A stretch of 56,750 nucleotides of DNA. Source: Bacteroidota bacterium (GTDB lineage: Bacteria; Bacteroidota; Ignavibacteria; UBA10030; BY39). Location of the stretch: contig JAUXOG010000090.1 of NCBI GenBank assembly GCA_030682385.1, forward strand, positions 1 to 56,750. The letters are read 5' to 3'. Below are positions 20,526 through 53,455 of this stretch, piece by piece; position 1 is the stretch's first letter; every line of letters begins with the position of its first letter. Below the pieces are notes generated by a model. The model did no database searches. It was not told the DNA's origin and saw nothing but the letters and a program-made list of their open reading frames with translations. Position numbers and translations under genes: made by a program.

Positions 20526-20658
20526 ACTGAAGTTACGCAGAATCGACTTTTTGTCATGTTGAGCGAAGCGAAACATCTAAAAACAGCTCAAAATTGAGGT
20601 TTAAGATTCTTCATCCGCCTTTGGCGGATTCAGAATGACTGTTCTGCGTAACTTCAGT
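20526..20658 (+). mobile_element. MITE copy A (133 bp, non-autonomous)
   Basis: Terminal inverted repeats ACTGAAGTTACGCAGAA / TTCTGCGTAACTTCAGT (17 bp, perfect) are flanked by a 5-bp direct repeat TATTA (20521-20525 and 20659-20663). There is no ORF. The interior carries TGTCATGTTGAGCGAAGCG and, near the right end, a 15-bp TCCGCC-TTT-GGCGGA palindrome absent from copy B at the equivalent position. The transposase family is not identifiable from the inverted repeat alone. Confidence 0.9.
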
Positions 20659-33944: not shown

Positions 33945-34067
33945 ACTGAAGTTACGCAGAATTGACTTTTTGTCATGTTGAGCGAAGCGAAACATCTAAA
34001 AATAGCTCGAATTTGAGGTTTAAGATTCTTCACTTCGTTCAGAATGACTCTTTTGCGTAACTTCAGT
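33945..34067 (+). mobile_element. MITE copy B (123 bp)
   Basis: Left end ACTGAAGTTACGCAGAA; right end with one change (TTTTGCGTAACTTCAGT). 5-bp target duplication TATCT at 33940-33944 and 34068-34072. From the left end its first 77 bases match the visible part of copy D exactly, and copy A closely. No coding capacity. It accounts for most of the 300-bp gap at 33904-34202. Confidence 0.9.
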
Positions 34068-42412: not shown

Positions 42413-43828
42413 ATGATTTGCGTTAGTATAGCCCCAAAAAATATGAAAGAAGCCCGCAGTTTGCTGATAAAAGCGGGAGAATTAGCTGACGTTGTTGAGA
42501 TACGTGTTGAAAATATAGTTGACCTTGATATTGAGCACCTCTTATTTCAGCCGCGTCCTGATGTAATTATAACAAACCGCCCATCCATCCCGACAAAGTC
42601 GGGATCAGAAAAAAAACGAATTGCTCTATTATATAAGGCAATCAAGGCAGGGGCTGAATATGTGGACATCGAGAGAACGGCAGGGAAAATTGTGGTATCG
42701 GATATAGTAAGATTTGCTAGCCAATGTAAAACTCAAGTTATTATTTCGTATCATAATTTTTCACATACTTCATCAGAAGATATATTGGATGTATATATAA
42801 GATTGAAAGCGGCTCGCCCGCATATCATAAAACTTGTAACTTATGCGAATAAGATATACGACAATCTCAGAATATTTAATTTATTGCAAACGGCGATAAA
42901 GGGACACTATCGAATGTCCTGTTTTTGTATGGGAGAAAAAGGTGAAATCAGCCGAATACTCGCACCTCGCTTTGGCGGATACATAACCTATTGTTCTCTC
43001 GACGAGGGAGATGAAACCGCACCGGGTCAAATTCCTGTAAAAAAATTATTGGATGTTTATAACTACAGATCCATTAATGAACAAACTAAAATTTTCGGAT
43101 TAGTGGGGAATCCGGTTTCTCATAGCCGTGGTATTTATATTCACAACAAATATTTTAAGCAAAATAATTTGAACGCGGTGTATGTAAATTTTTTAGCGGA
43201 TGATTTCGGAAATTTTTTTAGTGCATACTCAAAGTATTTGCAAGGTCTCAGCGTTACAATTCCACATAAAGAGAAAGCAACTAGATTAATGGAAAGCCGG
43301 TCTTATGAGGCGGAAGCCACCGGTTCGGTGAATACAATCATAAAGGAAGCCGACAGCTTTAAAGGCTACAATACCGATGCCCTAGCGGCTGTCCTGATTT
43401 TTGAAAAATTATTAAACGGTAAATCGGTAGCTGTGTTAGGTACCGGCGGCACTGCCCGCAGCGCCATTTATGCTGCAAAAAAGTGTGGTGCCAGCGTCCA
43501 CATATTTGGGAGGGATTTGAAAAAAGCTAATATGCTTGCCCTTAATTTTGAATGTGAATACAGTCCGTTCGACGAAATCCAGAAAATTAAATTTATGGAT
43601 GTAATAATTAATACTACTCCGGTTGGTATGGAACCGGATTCTGACGCATCACCGATTCCCCAAAATCTGTTAAATAAAGAAATGTTAGTTGTTGATTTTG
43701 TTTATACACCAGAGATTACAAAACTCTTAAGCGATGCTCATCAATGCGGCTGCCAAATTATTCCGGGAACAAAAATATTTGAGACGCAGGCAAAGTTACA
43801 ACAAGAACTTTTTAAATCTGTAATATGA
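42413..43828 (+). CDS. aroDE: Fused 3-dehydroquinate dehydratase (type I)/shikimate dehydrogenase
   Basis: 471 aa. AroD domain is about residues 1-214, with the Schiff-base Lys140 (HIIKLVTYAN) and general base His114 (ISYHNFSHT). AroE domain is about 226-471, with GNPVSHSRG, Lys286 (SVTIPHKEKA), Asp322 (GYNTDALAA) and the NADP loop GTGGTAR (343-349). It performs steps three and four of the pathway. A perfect 19-bp palindrome ATCCCGAC-AAA-GTCGGGAT (42587-42605) lies in frame and encodes part of RPSIPTKSGSEKK, a likely small insertion. The 3' end overlaps aroA by 4 bp (ATGA). Confidence 0.95.
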   Translation: MICVSIAPKNMKEARSLLIKAGELADVVEIRVENIVDLDIEHLLFQPRPDVIITNRPSIPTKSGSEKKRIALLYKAIKAGAEYVDIERTAGKIVVSDIVRFASQCKTQVIISYHNFSHTSSEDILDVYIRLKAARPHIIKLVTYANKIYDNLRIFNLLQTAIKGHYRMSCFCMGEKGEISRILAPRFGGYITYCSLDEGDETAPGQIPVKKLLDVYNYRSINEQTKIFGLVGNPVSHSRGIYIHNKYFKQNNLNAVYVNFLADDFGNFFSAYSKYLQGLSVTIPHKEKATRLMESRSYEAEATGSVNTIIKEADSFKGYNTDALAAVLIFEKLLNGKSVAVLGTGGTARSAIYAAKKCGASVHIFGRDLKKANMLALNFECEYSPFDEIQKIKFMDVIINTTPVGMEPDSDASPIPQNLLNKEMLVVDFVYTPEITKLLSDAHQCGCQIIPGTKIFETQAKLQQELFKSVI

Positions 43829-45120
43829 CAACAGTAGAAAACATCAACGCCGTAGTTCGTGTGCCTACATCAAAGAGTATAACAAACCGGGCATTGATTG
43901 CCGCAGCTTTAGCAAATGGAGTTTCGGAGGTTGTAGATTTCTCAACCGCTGACGATTGCCGGCTTATGATAGAGGCGTTGCGGAAATTCGGTGTCAGCAT
44001 CGAAGAAATTGGCAACAAGTTGATTGTTACCGGAACCGGAGGAAAAATTAAAGCGTCTGATTCCGATATATTTGTCGGAAATGCAGGCACTACAATGCGG
44101 TTTCTTGCAGGACTCGCAGCATTAGCTGATGGTTCTACTATAATATATGGCGACGAGCGGATGAACTTACGACCGATTGGCGATTTAACCACCGCACTTG
44201 AGCAGCTTGGAATTCGGATAGAAACAAACAACGGCTACCCACCTGTTAAAATTGTTGGCGGAGAATTAAAGGGGGGAACCGTTCACATCGACGCTTCTAA
44301 GAGCAGCCAGTTTGTTTCCTCTATATTATTGATTGCACCTTATGCAATACAAGATGTCGATTTGGTACTGGGCGATCGAGCCCGCTCGACTATGCCGTTC
44401 GGGCGAGTTGCCTCAAAACCATATCTTGATATAACTCGTGTTGTAATGCAATCATTTGGCGCTGATGTTCAAGAAAAAACAAACGGCTACTATATTAGTA
44501 GTACAAAACGATACCAGCCGGCTACATATATAATAGAGGGGGATTATTCATCGGCTTCTTATTTTTTTGCAGCCGCAGCAGTAACCGGTGGAAAAGTTAC
44601 AGTGCAAAACTTAAATCCGCATTCAAAACAAGGTGATGCCGGTTTTTTGGAAGTCCTACAAAAAATGGGATGCAAAATAATAAAGGATGTTTCTGGGATT
44701 ACGGTTGTTGGCTGCCCTGAACTATCAGGTATTACAATTGATATGAACGAAATGCCCGATATGGTTCCAACTTTAGCAGTAATGGCTTTATTTGCAAATG
44801 GAAAGACTAAAATAGAGAACGTTGCTCATCTGCGTTATAAAGAATCGGACCGTTTGTACTCACTTGCAACCGAAATCCGCAAGTTAGGTGTTGAAGTAAC
44901 AGAGTTTGATGACGGGCTTGAAATTGTGCCGAAGGGAAAATATATTGGTGTTGTAATAGAAACTTATAACGACCACCGTATAGCTATGAGTTTTGCGATT
45001 GCGGGTTTAAAAATCCCCGGTATCAAAATTATAAATCCCGGTTGTGTAAAAAAATCGTTCCCCGATTTTTGGGATGAGTTTAGCCAACATTTTCCTCCCC
45101 ATTGTAAAGGGGGAGGTTAG
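43825..45120 (+). CDS. aroA: EPSP synthase (3-phosphoshikimate 1-carboxyvinyltransferase)
   Basis: 431 aa. Class motifs visible: VPTSKSITNRALIAAALANG, GNAGTTMRFLAGLAAL, YKESDRLYSLATEIRKLG and YNDHRIAMSFAIAGL. It adds the enolpyruvyl group of PEP to shikimate-3-phosphate. The start overlaps aroDE (ATGA). The last residues (HFPPHCKGGG) are encoded by a CCTCCCC...GGGGGAGG palindrome (45094-45116), so the natural C-terminus seems replaced or extended by a repeat; the catalytic body is intact. Confidence 0.96.
   Translation: MTTVENINAVVRVPTSKSITNRALIAAALANGVSEVVDFSTADDCRLMIEALRKFGVSIEEIGNKLIVTGTGGKIKASDSDIFVGNAGTTMRFLAGLAALADGSTIIYGDERMNLRPIGDLTTALEQLGIRIETNNGYPPVKIVGGELKGGTVHIDASKSSQFVSSILLIAPYAIQDVDLVLGDRARSTMPFGRVASKPYLDITRVVMQSFGADVQEKTNGYYISSTKRYQPATYIIEGDYSSASYFFAAAAVTGGKVTVQNLNPHSKQGDAGFLEVLQKMGCKIIKDVSGITVVGCPELSGITIDMNEMPDMVPTLAVMALFANGKTKIENVAHLRYKESDRLYSLATEIRKLGVEVTEFDDGLEIVPKGKYIGVVIETYNDHRIAMSFAIAGLKIPGIKIINPGCVKKSFPDFWDEFSQHFPPHCKGGG
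45094..45116. repeat. CCTCCCC palindromic repeat, copy 1
   Basis: CCTCCCC (45094-45100) and its inverse (45109-45116) at the very end of aroA. Related copies are at 45502-45524 and 52269-52291. Confidence 0.7.
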
Positions 45121-45294
45121 GAGGGTGTCTCATGGACAAGATTAGGTTACGAGCCCGCGAGTTAAGAAAACACCAAACGTATGCTGAAAAATTGTTATGG
45201 AATCTGCTTCGTAACAAATCTCTTGGCGTTAAATTTAGACGGCAGCACTGTATCGGTAATTATATTGTTGATTTTTATTGTTCGGAATTGAGAT

Positions 45295-45312
45295 TAGTAA
45301 CTTCAGTTAGTA
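45295..45312. mobile_element. MITE excision footprint
   Basis: TAGTA (45295-45299), ACTTCAGT (45300-45307), TAGTA (45308-45312). The 8-bp core equals the terminal 8 bases of the MITE family's right end, and TAGTA is a duplicated 5-bp target, matching the TATTA, TATCT and TACTA seen beside intact copies. Removing 13 bp restores the DUF559 frame. Confidence 0.8.
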
Positions 45313-45501
45313 ATTGAAGTTGATGGCGATGTGCACGATTTAGACGATGTAAAAGAATATGATAGAAACAGACAAAAATATATAGAAACCTCTGGCTACA
45401 AAGTAATCCGGTTTCAAAACGAAAAAGTAATAAACGAAACTGACAGAACTTTGAGAGAAATAGCCGAGGTTGTTTATGAAATTAAACACACCCCACCCGT
45501 G

Positions 45502-45524
45502 CCCTCCCCTCATAGAGGGGAGGG
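45502..45524. repeat. CCCTCCCC palindromic repeat, copy 2
   Basis: CCCTCCCCT (45502-45510) and AGGGGAGGG (45516-45524), 9-bp arms. It lies in the tail of the broken DUF559 gene, 27 bp before the aroC start codons. Confidence 0.75.
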
Positions 45525-45553
45525 TTTGGGAGGGGTTTGAGAAAGATAAAATG

Positions 45554-46792
45554 ATGTCAGGTAATACATACGGTGAAAAATTCAGGGTTACAACATTCGG
45601 CGAAAGCCACGGCAAATCTGTAGGTGTTGTAATTGATGGCGTTCCATCGAAGTTAGAATTGTCCCACGAAGATATACAAAAAGAGCTTGACCGACGACGC
45701 CCCGGACAAAGCATTATTACAACCCAGCGGCAGGAAGAGGATAGAGCAGAAATTTTAAGCGGAGTTTTCGAAGGTAAAACACTCGGCACTCCGATTTGCA
45801 TAATCGTTTGGAACAAGGAAAAGCGTTCCGAAGATTATGAAAATATCAAAAACATCTTCCGTCCAGGACACGCCGATTTTTCGTACTATTCAAAATATGG
45901 AATATACGATTACCGCGGCGGCGGACGTGCATCGGGGAGAGAAACTATCGGTCGTGTTGCCGCAGGTGCAATAGCAAAAAAAATATTAGCTCAGCACAAA
46001 ATAAAAATTATCGCATACACAAAATCGGTTGCAGGTATTGAAGCGAAAAATATTGATTACCGCGAGATAGAAAAAAATTCCGTTCGCTGTCCCGATTCTA
46101 ATGCTGCAAAAAAAATGGAAAAGAAAATTTTAGAAGCAATGAAGGCGGGCGACTCGGTTGGCGGGATTGTTGAGGTTGTCGTTCAAGGCTGTCCGCCCGG
46201 ATTAGGCGAGCCGGTGTTCAACAAACTTGATGCTGAACTTGCTAAGGCGATGCTTTCGATTCCGGCTGTAAAAGGATTTGAGATTGGTTCGGGTTTTCAT
46301 TCGGCAGAAATTTATGGAAGCGAAAACAATGATGAATTTTATTTCGATAAAAAACTAAAGCGGATTCGGACACGCACCAACAATGCCGGCGGCGTTTTAG
46401 GTGGTATAACTACGGGTGAAGATATTATTTTTCGTATAGCCGTTAAGCCAACCTCATCAATTGGGTTGACTCAAAAAACTATCGGTTTGGATGGTACCCT
46501 AAAAACAATAAAAATTGAAGGGCGTCCCGCCTGCGTGCCGGAACGTATAGAAAAAATTCCTACAGAAGGTGTACCTGAACTCATAGAAGAGATTACTACG
46601 GCGGGCAGGCCCGCCTGCGTAACGGAAAATATATCAGAAATCACTACGGCGGGCAGGCCCGCCTGCGTGCCGGAACTGGAAACAGAAATCACTACGGCGG
46701 GCAGGCATGATCCCTGCATTTGTCCGCGGGTTGTTCCGGTGGCTGAGGCTATGACGGCTATTGTCATCGCTAATTATTTGTTTGTAAAATGA
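45554..46792 (+). CDS. aroC: Chorismate synthase with a 60-residue in-frame repeat insertion
   Basis: 412 aa from ATG 45554 (ATG 45551 also possible); an upstream in-frame ATG would add a tail encoded by repeat DNA. It makes chorismate from EPSP with reduced FMN. Conserved blocks: [42 protein letters not shown] and [15 protein letters not shown]. The expected C-terminal phrase [18 protein letters not shown] is split after GR by 60 residues (about 325-384; DNA 46526-46705). Removing them gives 352 aa, the usual length. Last gene of the shikimate cluster. It is probably functional if the loop is tolerated, but untested. Confidence 0.95.
46526..46705 (+). repeat. Palindromic 48-bp repeat insertion inside aroC
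   Basis: 180 bp, exactly 60 codons. Two near-identical 48-bp units (16 residues each, [16 protein letters not shown] and [16 protein letters not shown]) and an earlier diverged longer unit. Each carries the palindrome GGCGGGC-AG-GCCCGCC. Every unit restarts with Gly-Arg, so the original GR is duplicated at each step. Confidence 0.85.
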
Positions 46793-47356: not shown

Positions 47357-50300
47357 ATGAATCGTTTCCTTAATTTATTTTTAGCGATTACCATTTTAGT
47401 ACTAGCTACTTCGATGGTATTTGCTATCGGTGGTAAGGATAGTAAGAATCCGCAATCGACTCAACTACTTCAACGTGAAGTAATTGGCGACGATGCGAAT
47501 GAACATATTCGACCACCACATATCGATACTTATGTAATGCCCAAGAGCAGGGGCAAAGTAGCTCTCGCCGGTACTTATACTATCGGTGTCGGTGGTAACT
47601 ATGAGATGCTCAGACATGCAGTGGCTGCATTACAAGCCGAAGGTGTAAGCGCACCAGTTACTTTTGAATTTATTGATGCCGCTTATACTGATACCGGTCA
47701 AACAATTGGTGGTTATGTCGGGCAAGGTCCGGCTAACCTTGTTACATTCAAACCCGCCACTGGCATAGTTACTAATCTTAAATTTTCCGGTGGTACAGGT
47801 ACGGCAAGTTACACGGGGCTTTCTGGTGGATTCAACTTCCGTAATGCCTCGGGTATTACTTTGGACGGATCTAACTCCGCTGGTGATGACAGGAGTCTGA
47901 CAATCGAATGCGATACAGTTGGTGTTAATACTCAAGGTAGAGCTCCATTGGGTATGTACCGAGGTTGCAATAATATTACTGTTAAAAATATGGTAGTAAA
48001 GGGTAACCGTCGTGCAGTGTCAAATGCTTGGGGTCTTATATCTAACGATAATTTAGGTATGGGTGCTTTCGGAGCTCAGTATAATATCACATATCATAAT
48101 AACCATTTCAAACAAGGTAATGCTATAGCATTTGTCCGCGGTGCGGGTTCGGGTGCTATCGCAGGAATACCAGCCGATTATAATTATACATTTACGAACA
48201 ATATATTCGGCGGACAAAACAGCACTCAAGTATTAGACCATATGGCTGGAGGTCTTAATCTCCAGGAAAACGTTAACAATGTTTTAATCGATAATAACGA
48301 TTTTTACGGTATGAAGATCGCAGGCACTCCGATACCAGTTCAAATTCGCGGCGGAAATGCCAATGTCGTCGTGTCGAACAACAAATTTCATAACATCGTT
48401 ACACTATCTGGTGCAAATCGACCAATATGTTTACTCATCGGTAACACAACCACCGCTGGAACCGGTATCGCACCAAGAGTTACAGCGAAAATTTATAATA
48501 ATATGTTTTATGATATTCACAATTATGCCACCAGTGCACCAGGGCGCGGATTTAACTGGGTTACTTATAATAACACGAGTGGAACCAATGGAACGGGCAG
48601 TACAGTTGAATATTATCACAATACTCTAAACCTTAATTTAGCAGCCGGCGAAACATTCGGCGTTACTGCGTTTATTTTTGATGGTAACTGGGCGGGTGGC
48701 AATACTACTTATTCTGACGAGATTGCTCTCAAAAATAATATATTTTCTTCTATCCGCGCAACTAGCTTTACAAGGACATATCTAATGTTCGCGGAAGGTG
48801 CACCGGGTATGCTCAATATGACAGCGGATTATAATTTATACTACCAGGTTGATGCCGGCTCTTTCGCTCAATTTCCAAATCCATGGCCCACCGGTGGTGC
48901 ATATGTGGGAACGTACGAAGATTGGAAAACCGCAACCGGTTTTGATGAAAACAGTAAACAAGAAAACCCGGTTTTTGCTAGTACAACAAGTGCCCATATC
49001 AGTACAACACAAGGAGATGCATCGCCCGCAGATCAAATGGGAACACTTTTGACTCCACCAATCACTCATGATATCGATGGACAGTTACGCGCAGACTATA
49101 CACCGGTAGATGTCGGCGCCCATGCGTTTATTCCTGTCCCTTGGGATTATGACGCCTACCCAGTAAGCGTACTCGGTCCCGAATTAGAAGGTGTAAAAGT
49201 TAACGCCAATGCTTTCCCTTCTGTTAGAGTTAAAAATAATGGAATCAACGTGCTAACAATTCCGGTAAGAGTAAAAATAGTTGGTACATCGTATGATGTA
49301 GTTGAAAATGTAGTTGATGTTCCGGCTCTCAGTATGGCTGATTATACATTTACAACAACATTCACTTCCTCAGTTGCGGGCGACTATACTATAGAGGTAA
49401 CAACTGAATATGTTGGAGATCAAAATCCAGATAATAATGGCCCTATTACAAGGAATTTATTTGTAGTACCTGAAGTACCAATTCCATCAACCGGTTATTT
49501 TAACAACTTTGATGTAGTGTCCAAAGCAACGGGGTTAGTGCAAGGCGGATGGCTTTCTGCTGCTACTTCGCCTGGTGCTGATAATTGGCTGCTTGGAACA
49601 CCCGCAAAAGCAACAATAAACAGTGCATATTCAGCCCCAAACAGTTTTGTAACAGGTCCTTTAAATGCCAATTATGCAGTTAGTTGGTATGCGGCTGTTT
49701 ATTCACCATTTTTTAATTTAAGCGCTTTAACTAATCCGATTGTCCGATTTGCAATTGCATACAAAACTGAACCTGAGTGGGATGCTGCAATATTCGAATA
49801 TTCATTAGACGGAGATACCTGGGAGAGGGCATTTAAACCTAATGCCATCAACTGGTATAATATGCTTGAAGGCGAAGATCTGGTTTTTGGACCCCCAGCT
49901 TGGTCGGGTGCGGAAGATGTTAACCCGGGTGGTTGGAGAATTGCAACGATCACATTACCAGAATTGGCTGGTGAGAGTATTGTACGATTCAGGCTCAATT
50001 TCGGTTCAGATGGTTACGAAGTTGATGAAGGTGTAGCTTTCGATAACTTCGAAATTATGAACGGTTCAATTCTTGCCGGTATGAAGTTCTTGGATGTCAA
50101 TAGAAACGGTGAGAGGAATATCGGTGAACCAGGTATTGCGGATTGGGTTCTCGACTTAGCTCCTTACAACTATACAGCAGTAACCGATGCCGATGGTAAT
50201 TATCAATTCACCGAGAACATCGTCCCTGGTAATTATACTGTTTATGAAAACGAAGTTGCCGGATGGGTACAAACATATCCTACAACTGTACCACCAACTT

Positions 50301-52252
50301 ACGAATTAACTGTTTCCAGTGGTGTCAATTATAATGATTTAGATTTCGGTAACTACTTTACTAATGCTTCAATTTCAGGTATGAAGTTCGAAGACTTAAA
50401 TGGTAACGGTATAAAAGAAGCTGGCGAACCCGGACTTGAAGGCTGGACTATCAATTTAGTTGGTCCAACACCAGGCACCGTAGTTTCAGGTGTAGGTGGA
50501 ACTTATAGTTTCAATAACTTACTCCCCGGTGATTATACAGTGTCCGAAGTTCTTCAAGCGGGTTGGGTAAAAACTTTACCAATCGCTGCATCTTATGCAG
50601 TAACACTCGACCTTGGCGGTCAAGCTGTTACAGGTAAAGATTTCGGTAACTTTAAATTAGCAGCTATTAGCGGTAAAGTATTCTTAGACTTTAACCGTAA
50701 CGGTGTGTTTAATGCCGGTGAACCGGGTGTTGACGGCGTTACAGCTAATTTAGGTTCTCAAACCACTGCTACAGCGGGTGGTGGATTATTTAATTTTGCT
50801 GCACCTGTTGGCTCATATACATTAAGTATAGTCGTTCCGGCAGGCAGATATCTTATTGCACCGGTTAGTGGAAATTATCCGGTTAATGTTAATGCAAGCG
50901 GCGTAGTATTTGCCGGCGACTTTGCTATTAACTACAATGAAGATCAGGCAATGTATCGCTCATTTAAACATGAAGATGTTGTTGCATTAGTCAACGGAAA
51001 ACTTCCTAAAGCTATAAAGCCAAAACATAATGGCGGCTATTGGGAATTTACAGTCACAAATCCATTAACAGAAACAGCTACAGAATTACACATCCAATTT
51101 AAAAACGATGTGAACTCTACACGCCCCATGGGTCATGAACCATTTACAGCAGTAGCTGGCGATACAAAGAAAAAATTCGACTTCAGCGGCGGAAGCGGTG
51201 TTGCAGCGGGTCAATCGATCACAATAACAGGATACAGCGCCAAAGGTAAGCCACAGCAGATTAAAAAATACTGGTTTGGTGCTGATCCAAAGAAATCACC
51301 TGCTATCAATCAACTACCAGCATTTTCATATCTCGAATTCCCAATGCCAACTTACGCAAACTTGATTAACGAAACGTTTGCCGATGGTGGCTTTGGTGCC
51401 GGATTACTCGTTGGTATAGTTGGCGATCCGAAAACAACCGGATGGGTACTTATGGCTAAATCGGGCGATGTTCAAAAATCGCTGCTCGATAAAACAGGTA
51501 TTCACACTGGAGACGCAGGATTTTTTGTAACATTAGGAACAAAACCATTCTTAAAAGGACAAAAATCGTTACCGCCTGCAAAGCACAATAATAAATTATT
51601 TGCAGAAATTGTTGCTCTGAAGTTAGGTATCGCAGCAAGTGCTACCTCGCATACACTCCCCGGCTTTGGTGAATTAGTTTATCAAGGTTCAGTTGTTGCA
51701 CATCATGGTAAAAAGGTTACAACTATTGCAAACCAAGCCAGTGATGCTATGACGCTGAAAGCAGGAGACGCAGCTGGATACTTTACTGCGATTCGCGAAA
51801 TCAATGCAGCATTTGCGGGTGACTTTGATACCTCGAGTTATGGTGGCGTCAAAACAGTTCTTAGCGGTGTCAAGAAACTTGCCGATGTTTCCGTACTGCG
51901 TGCAGGCGATGGCACCATAGTTACAATCAATACACCAAACGAAGGTAACTACAGTCAAGTACCTGATATTTTTGAGTTAGCTCAAAACTATCCAAACCCG
52001 TTCAACCCATCAACAACTATACAGTTCATATTACCTGAAGATGCAATCGTAACCTTGAAAGTTTATAACGTTCTCGGTCAGGAAGTTGCAACTTTAGCTA
52101 ATCGCGAACTATTTACCGAAGGTAGTAACGACTTAGAATTTGAAGCCGGCAATTTATCGTCCGGTATTTATTTCTATCAAATTACAGCCGAAGGTGTAGG
52201 CGAGAATGCTGGCAAGTTCACACAAGTCAAGAAGATGGTCTTGATGAAGTAA
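47357..52252 (+). CDS. Giant T9SS-exported multidomain surface protein
   Basis: 1631 aa. Signal peptide about 1-24. Residues about 70-590 are rich in N- and G-containing turns, as in right-handed beta-helices (NITVKNMVVKGNRR, NNVLIDNNDFYGM, NVVVSNNKFHNIV). A CARDB-like domain is at about 610-700 (VRVKNNGINVLTIPVRVKIV). A jelly-roll-like region follows (DNWLLGTPAKATINSAYSAP). Three SdrD-B/Cna-B-like repeats start GMKFLDVNRNGERNIGEPGI, GMKFEDLNGNGIKEAGEPGL and GKVFLDFNRNGVFNAGEPGV. The last 95 residues are a type A sorting domain (LAQNYPNPFNPSTTIQFILP, ending KKMVLMK). Predicted outer-surface or secreted; ligand unknown. Confidence 0.9.
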   Translation: MNRFLNLFLAITILVLATSMVFAIGGKDSKNPQSTQLLQREVIGDDANEHIRPPHIDTYVMPKSRGKVALAGTYTIGVGGNYEMLRHAVAALQAEGVSAPVTFEFIDAAYTDTGQTIGGYVGQGPANLVTFKPATGIVTNLKFSGGTGTASYTGLSGGFNFRNASGITLDGSNSAGDDRSLTIECDTVGVNTQGRAPLGMYRGCNNITVKNMVVKGNRRAVSNAWGLISNDNLGMGAFGAQYNITYHNNHFKQGNAIAFVRGAGSGAIAGIPADYNYTFTNNIFGGQNSTQVLDHMAGGLNLQENVNNVLIDNNDFYGMKIAGTPIPVQIRGGNANVVVSNNKFHNIVTLSGANRPICLLIGNTTTAGTGIAPRVTAKIYNNMFYDIHNYATSAPGRGFNWVTYNNTSGTNGTGSTVEYYHNTLNLNLAAGETFGVTAFIFDGNWAGGNTTYSDEIALKNNIFSSIRATSFTRTYLMFAEGAPGMLNMTADYNLYYQVDAGSFAQFPNPWPTGGAYVGTYEDWKTATGFDENSKQENPVFASTTSAHISTTQGDASPADQMGTLLTPPITHDIDGQLRADYTPVDVGAHAFIPVPWDYDAYPVSVLGPELEGVKVNANAFPSVRVKNNGINVLTIPVRVKIVGTSYDVVENVVDVPALSMADYTFTTTFTSSVAGDYTIEVTTEYVGDQNPDNNGPITRNLFVVPEVPIPSTGYFNNFDVVSKATGLVQGGWLSAATSPGADNWLLGTPAKATINSAYSAPNSFVTGPLNANYAVSWYAAVYSPFFNLSALTNPIVRFAIAYKTEPEWDAAIFEYSLDGDTWERAFKPNAINWYNMLEGEDLVFGPPAWSGAEDVNPGGWRIATITLPELAGESIVRFRLNFGSDGYEVDEGVAFDNFEIMNGSILAGMKFLDVNRNGERNIGEPGIADWVLDLAPYNYTAVTDADGNYQFTENIVPGNYTVYENEVAGWVQTYPTTVPPTYELTVSSGVNYNDLDFGNYFTNASISGMKFEDLNGNGIKEAGEPGLEGWTINLVGPTPGTVVSGVGGTYSFNNLLPGDYTVSEVLQAGWVKTLPIAASYAVTLDLGGQAVTGKDFGNFKLAAISGKVFLDFNRNGVFNAGEPGVDGVTANLGSQTTATAGGGLFNFAAPVGSYTLSIVVPAGRYLIAPVSGNYPVNVNASGVVFAGDFAINYNEDQAMYRSFKHEDVVALVNGKLPKAIKPKHNGGYWEFTVTNPLTETATELHIQFKNDVNSTRPMGHEPFTAVAGDTKKKFDFSGGSGVAAGQSITITGYSAKGKPQQIKKYWFGADPKKSPAINQLPAFSYLEFPMPTYANLINETFADGGFGAGLLVGIVGDPKTTGWVLMAKSGDVQKSLLDKTGIHTGDAGFFVTLGTKPFLKGQKSLPPAKHNNKLFAEIVALKLGIAASATSHTLPGFGELVYQGSVVAHHGKKVTTIANQASDAMTLKAGDAAGYFTAIREINAAFAGDFDTSSYGGVKTVLSGVKKLADVSVLRAGDGTIVTINTPNEGNYSQVPDIFELAQNYPNPFNPSTTIQFILPEDAIVTLKVYNVLGQEVATLANRELFTEGSNDLEFEAGNLSSGIYFYQITAEGVGENAGKFTQVKKMVLMK

Positions 52253-52268
52253 CAACCCCACCCTTTTT

Positions 52269-52291
52269 CCCTCCCCTTACATAGGGGAGGG
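52269..52291. repeat. CCCTCCCC palindromic repeat, copy 3
   Basis: CCCTCCCC (52269-52276) and GGGGAGGG (52284-52291), 8-bp arms, just after the stop of the giant surface protein gene. It may slow or end transcription, but no T-run follows. Confidence 0.7.
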
Positions 52292-52463: not shown

Positions 52464-53324
52464 ATGAAATTAAAAGTTATTAGTGTAGCGATTTTAACAG
52501 TGTTATTAGCTGCAATAATGTTTTCACAAGAGTATAAGATTAAATTAACGGTTGTTGATTCGAAGGTCCCGGTCCCGGAACAATATACCGCCACATTTGG
52601 ATGGCACGTTGATGCGACACATTGTATGGATGTAGCATTAGGAGAATCGGATGGACCGCCGAATCCTCCTGGTTTTAGCATAGCTTTTGCAAAATTTAGG
52701 TCAACCGGTTTAGCTGATTCATGTTATCCGGGGGGAAGTGGTATGGTTGATGGCAATTTAAAACCTTTTGATTTAAGAATGTGGACATTAGGTCAAGCTA
52801 TTAGAGATACATTCCGTTTAGCTTTTACTGAACCAGGGGCGGCAACTTTTCCAATAACCGTTAGTTGGGAAACGATAAGTGAGCCATCTATTCCAAGTTT
52901 AACAATGAAAGAATTTGGCACTGCAGATTTACAAACTGTGAATATGTTAACCGAAACCTCGATGATTATAACAGATGCGGATATTGTCAGGTTAAATATA
53001 TTTACTCAGACTCTATTAAACGTACAAGAAATAGGTGGTTTACCCAACGATTTTAAATTAGAACAAAATTATCCAAATCCTTTCAACCCATCGACAGATG
53101 TTTTATTCTCTATCAAAAATACATCGAATGTAAAAATCAGTGTTTATAATGTAATTGGTCAACTTGTAAATACTTTAGTTGACGAACAAATGAATGCCGG
53201 CAATTATTCTGTTAAGTGGGATGCTACCAATTATGCTAATGGTGTCTATTACATAAAAATGAATACTGTGAACCAAAATGGTGAATTATTTAACAGCGTC
53301 AAAAAATCTGTTTTAATTAAATAA
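52464..53324 (+). CDS. T9SS cargo protein with shared unnamed domain
   Basis: 286 aa. Signal peptide about 1-21 (cut near MFSQ). Residues about 30-190 form a domain (TFGWHVDATHCMDVALGESD, TFRLAFTEPGAATFPITVSW) that also occurs twice in the next protein. The type A sorting domain is at about 195-286 (KLEQNYPNPFNPSTDVLFSI to KKSVLIK). Start supported by TATAGGAGAAATTAA. Its TAA shares the last A with the first base of MITE copy C, so the element landed right at the stop. Confidence 0.85.
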   Translation: MKLKVISVAILTVLLAAIMFSQEYKIKLTVVDSKVPVPEQYTATFGWHVDATHCMDVALGESDGPPNPPGFSIAFAKFRSTGLADSCYPGGSGMVDGNLKPFDLRMWTLGQAIRDTFRLAFTEPGAATFPITVSWETISEPSIPSLTMKEFGTADLQTVNMLTETSMIITDADIVRLNIFTQTLLNVQEIGGLPNDFKLEQNYPNPFNPSTDVLFSIKNTSNVKISVYNVIGQLVNTLVDEQMNAGNYSVKWDATNYANGVYYIKMNTVNQNGELFNSVKKSVLIK

Positions 53325-53455
53325 CTGAAGTTACGCAGAACAGTCATTCTGAACGAAGTGAAGAATCTTAAACCTCAATTTCGAGCTGTTTTTAGATGTT
53401 TCTCCCGACTAGTCGGGATCAACATGACAAAAAGTCGGTTCTGCGTAACATCAGT
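53324..53455 (-). mobile_element. MITE copy C (132 bp, inverse orientation)
   Basis: Left end perfect (ACTGAAGTTACGCAGAA); right end with one change (TTCTGCGTAACATCAGT). Flanks AAATA/AAGTA, a 5-bp duplication with one mismatch. The interior is inverted relative to copies A, B and D and contains a TCCCGACT-AGTCGGGA palindrome (53403-53418) where the others have GCGAAGCG. It separates the two T9SS genes. Confidence 0.88.

Follow-up and report, generated by a model that had tools for sequence, protein, structure and literature searches.

The genome studied here is 3.38 Mb in size and assembled in 140 contigs; its contig C65, 56,750 nucleotides long, is the window analysed and carries a DUF559 gene between aroA (43825-45120) and aroC (within the open reading frame at 45470-46792). 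The product belongs to a predicted family of Vsr-like or PD-(D/E)XK nucleases (PF04480), but in this gene the reading frame is broken and the two parts lie in different frames (Table 1). The 5' half matches positions 2-57 and the 3' half positions 57-107 of the 109 positions of the Pfam profile, with scores of 68.4 and 47.6 bits, respectively, both above the cut-off of 20.6. Since the halves meet at profile position 57, the parts of the gene must abut at the lesion, with nothing lost between them. The 13 bp found there impose a +1 frameshift. The original prediction had proposed that their removal restores the frame RLV-IEVDGD, and this is indeed what is obtained when the flanks are joined by script: 132 codons with zero stops. 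Across the junction the joined product reads ..IVDFYCSELRLV|IEVDGDVHD.., and it is colinear, with no gap at this point, with 10 intact DUF559 proteins from the same genome and its relatives.

Table 1. Coordinates of the interrupted DUF559 gene, of the scar within it and of the MITE copies in the window.
Feature	Position	Strand	Remark
Intact MITE copy, 133 bp, TSD TATTA	20526..20658	+	
Intact MITE copy, 123 bp, TSD TATCT	33945..34067	+	
DUF559 cassette bracketed by CCTCCCC..GGGGAGG palindromes	45094..45523	+	between aroA and aroC; not in congener
DUF559 gene, 5' part, 61-aa ORF	45132..45317	+	frame departs from homology at the scar
Very probable MITE scar, TAGTA-ACTTCAGT-TAGTA, net insertion 13 bp	45295..45312	+	sole such structure in the window
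Left TSD copy (5 bp, TAGTA)	45295..45299	+	family consensus NANTN
GTAACT, 6-bp microhomology at the deletion junction	45297..45302	+	
Residual MITE terminus (very probable), ACTTCAGT, 8 bp	45300..45307	+	0-3 bp of left end plus 8-5 bp of right end
Right TSD copy (5 bp, TAGTA)	45308..45312	+	
DUF559 gene, 3' part, out of frame, from IEVDGD on, 75 aa	45313..45540	+	
MITE copy, 132 bp, TSD AAATA/AAGTA (one mismatch)	53324..53455	-	
MITE copy cut off by the contig end	56674..56750	+	

The octanucleotide ACTTCAGT that lies between the two copies of TAGTA is identical to the outermost 8 bp of a MITE present in the window as three complete copies and a cut one. The members of this family are ~123-142 bp long, have the terminal inverted repeats (TIRs) ACTGAAGTTACGCARAA / TTYTGCGTAACTTCAGT, and give at least 40 BLAST matches in the genome; the family also occurs in two relatives, G032 and the congeneric G001, the latter with 14 scored matches. 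Perfect 5-bp target duplications (TSDs) flank 29 of the 37 copies in which both junctions are readable, and these give a consensus NANTN, with A at position 2 in 26 of the 29 and T at position 4 in the same number; just over half (15/29) end in TA. The TAGTA of the scar agrees with the family in both the length and the motif of its target. The matching end, the length and motif of the target duplication and the recovery of a frame homologous to intact DUF559 genes make it very likely that the 13 bp derive from a MITE. The structure had been described beforehand as two TAGTA copies around 8 bp of a MITE end. The sequence and the identity of ACTTCAGT with the MITE terminus bear this out, but the derivation of all 8 bp from one end is not the only reading: owing to a 6-bp microhomology, the right end may equally have contributed 8, 7, 6 or 5 bp and the left end the remaining 0, 1, 2 or 3 bp.

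The same genome contains an IS of ~1.18 kb (G000:C108:1727-2909; L080:328-1510) whose ends, ACTGATGTTACGCAAAA and TTTGCGTAACATCAGT, resemble those of the MITE and whose TSD is TATTA. Its 360-aa product matches the NCBIfam IS701 profile NF049921 (312 bits against a cut-off of 250, E=5e-93), and the annotation of a related protein, encoded on a Cyanobacterium plasmid, places it in the ISAba11 group. The IS701 family, in its 2008 definition, comprises elements of 1.4-1.55 kb with 4-bp duplications (PMC2266710); for ISAba11, the reported direct repeats are 5 bp long and AT-rich, for example TATAG and ATTTA (PMC7885321). The IS described here has its transposase family (NF049921) in common with both and its 5-bp duplication in common with ISAba11, whereas its length of 1.18 kb and 5-bp TSD set it apart from IS701 as defined in 2008, with its 4-bp duplications. 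Because of this 5-bp TSD, we place the IS and the MITE with the ISAba11 type rather than with IS701 in the strict sense. Judged by the ends, this IS701/ISAba11-type element is the likely mobiliser of the MITE. The residue in the DUF559 gene has the MITE form, ACTTCAGT, and not the form ACATCAGT that the IS would give, which indicates a scar derived from a MITE. Two further MITE-like elements, of 124 bp (L082:910-1033) and 276 bp (L081:966-1241), carry ACATCAG or a close variant at their ends, as the IS does, and are flanked by duplications of 5 bp (AAATA and TAATG, respectively); they are possibly an older form of the MITE family.

To reconstruct the junction, four MITE copies (123, 133 and 142 bp) were placed in the site by script in both orientations, and the direct repeats of at least 5 bp near the junctions were listed. 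For all four copies, in either orientation, a deletion between two GTAACT repeats reproduces the observed scar exactly. The left repeat is composed of the GTA of the TSD and the ACT with which the element starts; the right one lies within the right TIR (GCGTAACTTCAGT). Among the 79 possible one-ended scars, a 6-bp microhomology occurs in one, namely that observed, and microhomology of 6 bp or more is found in 0.2% of all 2,239 simulated deletion products. As single-stranded DNA, moreover, the MITE strands fold back strongly, with z-scores of -5.5 to -7.2.

We infer the following history of the locus. A MITE, mobilised by the IS701/ISAba11-type transposase, would have inserted between aroA and aroC into a DUF559 gene that was still intact, with duplication of TAGTA and disruption of the gene. 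At some later time, a replication slip between the two GTAACT repeats, which the foldback structure of the MITE would bring together, would have removed nearly the whole element. The outcome of this insertion and subsequent loss would be one TSD copy on either side of 8 bp, a net gain of 13 bp and a +1 frameshift located after the first and before the second acidic residue of the predicted PD-(D/E)XK nuclease site.

Replication slippage across the MITE hairpin, or “nearly precise excision,” is probably the mechanism that produced the scar. The main competing explanation is an imprecise excision by the transposase itself, in which an IS701-type enzyme would cut the MITE unevenly and the junction made by the host would retain either 8 bp from one terminus of the element or 3+5 bp from the two. 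In its favour, the genome has an IS that is a candidate for activity and whose ends match, both TSD copies were retained, as in footprints of the eukaryotic type, and ACT+TCAGT is a possible reading of the residue. In related families, however, DDE transposases cut flush at the element ends, so that an 8-bp remainder is not what such an excision would be expected to leave, and the microhomology that singles out one of the 79 one-ended scars would have no explanation. Since 6 bp of microhomology do sit at the junction, we consider slippage the likelier mechanism and transposase excision rather improbable. There is one consideration that counts against slippage: precise excision at this site would use a longer repeat, of 7 bp (TTAGTAA), and hence slippage would restore the gene more often than it would scar it. 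Such gene-restoring events are also to be expected, and they would leave no trace. The original prediction held that the element can leave imprecisely; its near-complete loss is upheld, but the junction, which fits a 6-bp microhomology deletion, is no demonstration of an exit by its own transposition chemistry.

Two explanations that dispense with the loss of a MITE from the cells were also weighed. The 13 bp could be an ordinary indel, an unrelated small duplication that happens to resemble a MITE end between repeats. This is a single case, small tandem duplications are common, and a rough estimate from pattern-match counts and the 5-mer match probability gives ~0.1 perfect ACTTCAGT scars genome-wide. 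In the window, ACTTCAGT is found 10 times against 1.38 expected on both strands, mostly at MITE ends; as two random 5-mers match with a probability of 0.0012 (the chance control), only ~0.002 TSD-ACTTCAGT-TSD structures are expected there. Against a chance resemblance there is also the agreement in TSD length and target motif, together with the recovered homologous frame, in a genome that has ~40 such MITEs, and we regard such a resemblance as very improbable. Alternatively, the cells might carry an intact MITE at this site, its hairpin having been deleted in the reads or in the assembly. Polymerases can skip hairpins in vitro, and a MITE lies at the end of many contigs in this assembly, but more than 30 other copies were assembled whole, and a jump at GTAACT would demand that a graph assembler use k-mers of 6 or less. 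An artefact of this sort is scarcely to be believed.

The scar lies between the DFYC and IEVDG motifs of DUF559, which supply the acidic residues to the PD-(D/E)XK-like site, and this position makes it very probable that the gene product is dead. It is, in addition, the sole lesion in the DUF559 frame, the remainder of which is undecayed, and the inactivation is for this reason plausibly both recent and caused by the MITE. The earlier attribution of the inactivation to MITE activity thus appears reasonable as to cause, and as to time it yields a relative date only. The accompanying proposal, that imprecise excision was responsible for the frameshift, must be revised: most likely the gene had already been broken by the insertion, and the excision merely failed to repair it. 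A DNA search of 59 relatives gave no match covering the DUF559 gene, and no allele with the MITE in place, nor one free of it, was seen in the congener G001 or among the 59 relatives, the species being represented by one genome. An aroA scan of a database of genome contigs gave only distant aroA genes, of 41-45% identity.

Comparable scars were sought elsewhere. In its own genome, no other ACTTCAGT with perfect direct repeats on both sides is among the places listed by three pattern searches (the listed matches to the W...W and S...W patterns and the first 100 of the 145 places of a broader pattern), nor is there one among the places listed by one pattern search of the congener G001. The search for scars with residues other than ACTTCAGT covered the window and a set of chosen loci. 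Two candidates were rejected: TTCAA-ACTTCAGT-TTTAA (C13:37378), with a flank match of 4/5, lies off the NANTN motif and was taken as chance; a solo TIR at C103 (L054), whose flanks TTATA/TAATA likewise match at only 4/5 positions, reads as a decayed one-sided copy. A broader generalization would be that, wherever a TSD ends in TA, the sequence that it forms with ACT copies the TAACT of the opposite TIR, and that the family therefore decays systematically to frameshifting 8-bp scars (+13 bp) rather than to restored genes. We consider this unlikely; if it were true, the built-in slippage repeat (TSD TA plus ACT) would make MITE insertions hard to reverse.

The closest known parallel is the nearly precise excision of Tn10 and its relatives in Escherichia coli, which, in the work of d'Alencon et al. 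described in PMC12524634, is a copy-choice deletion between short direct repeats. Both would be short-direct-repeat deletions, helped by inverted repeats, that leave part of the element behind; the present case differs in being a natural MITE scar, seen in sequence, with 6-bp repeats of which one spans the TSD/element junction. The family itself resembles other prokaryotic MITEs (PMC10969869) in being short, noncoding and present in many copies, with TIRs, TSDs and IS-derived ends, and it is linked here to an ISAba11-type IS of the same genome. In the literature searched we found no reports of bacterial MITE scars: the words footprint, precise and remnant are absent from the text of the above review, and in a paper on Nostoc azollae the word “footprint” has a different meaning. 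Reports of natural MITE scars in bacteria thus seem to be rare, and the scar described here is a clean natural example, although a single case, of a known kind of event. It illustrates how a MITE can disrupt a gene and afterwards for the most part disappear, and hence some of the unexplained small frameshifts of bacteria may be remnants of lost MITEs. Such remnants would have a testable signature, a 5-bp TSD around ACTTCAGT or ACTGAAGT.

The surroundings of the gene have peculiarities of their own. In the congener G001, aroA adjoins aroC at a distance of ~110 bp, with neither a DUF559 gene nor palindromes there, and the palindrome-bracketed DUF559 gene could be a mobile cassette in its own right. 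There are just five CCTCCCC..GGGGAGG palindromes in the whole genome. The left one of the cassette gives aroA a new C-terminus (..FPPHCKGGG vs ..FEKLYL), and a further one (52270-52290) directly follows the gene of a 1631-aa protein (47357-52252), with no DUF559 gene beside it. Finally, aroC contains tandem 48-bp in-frame repeats (46535-46714), just ahead of a conserved motif, that are absent from the aroC of the congener.
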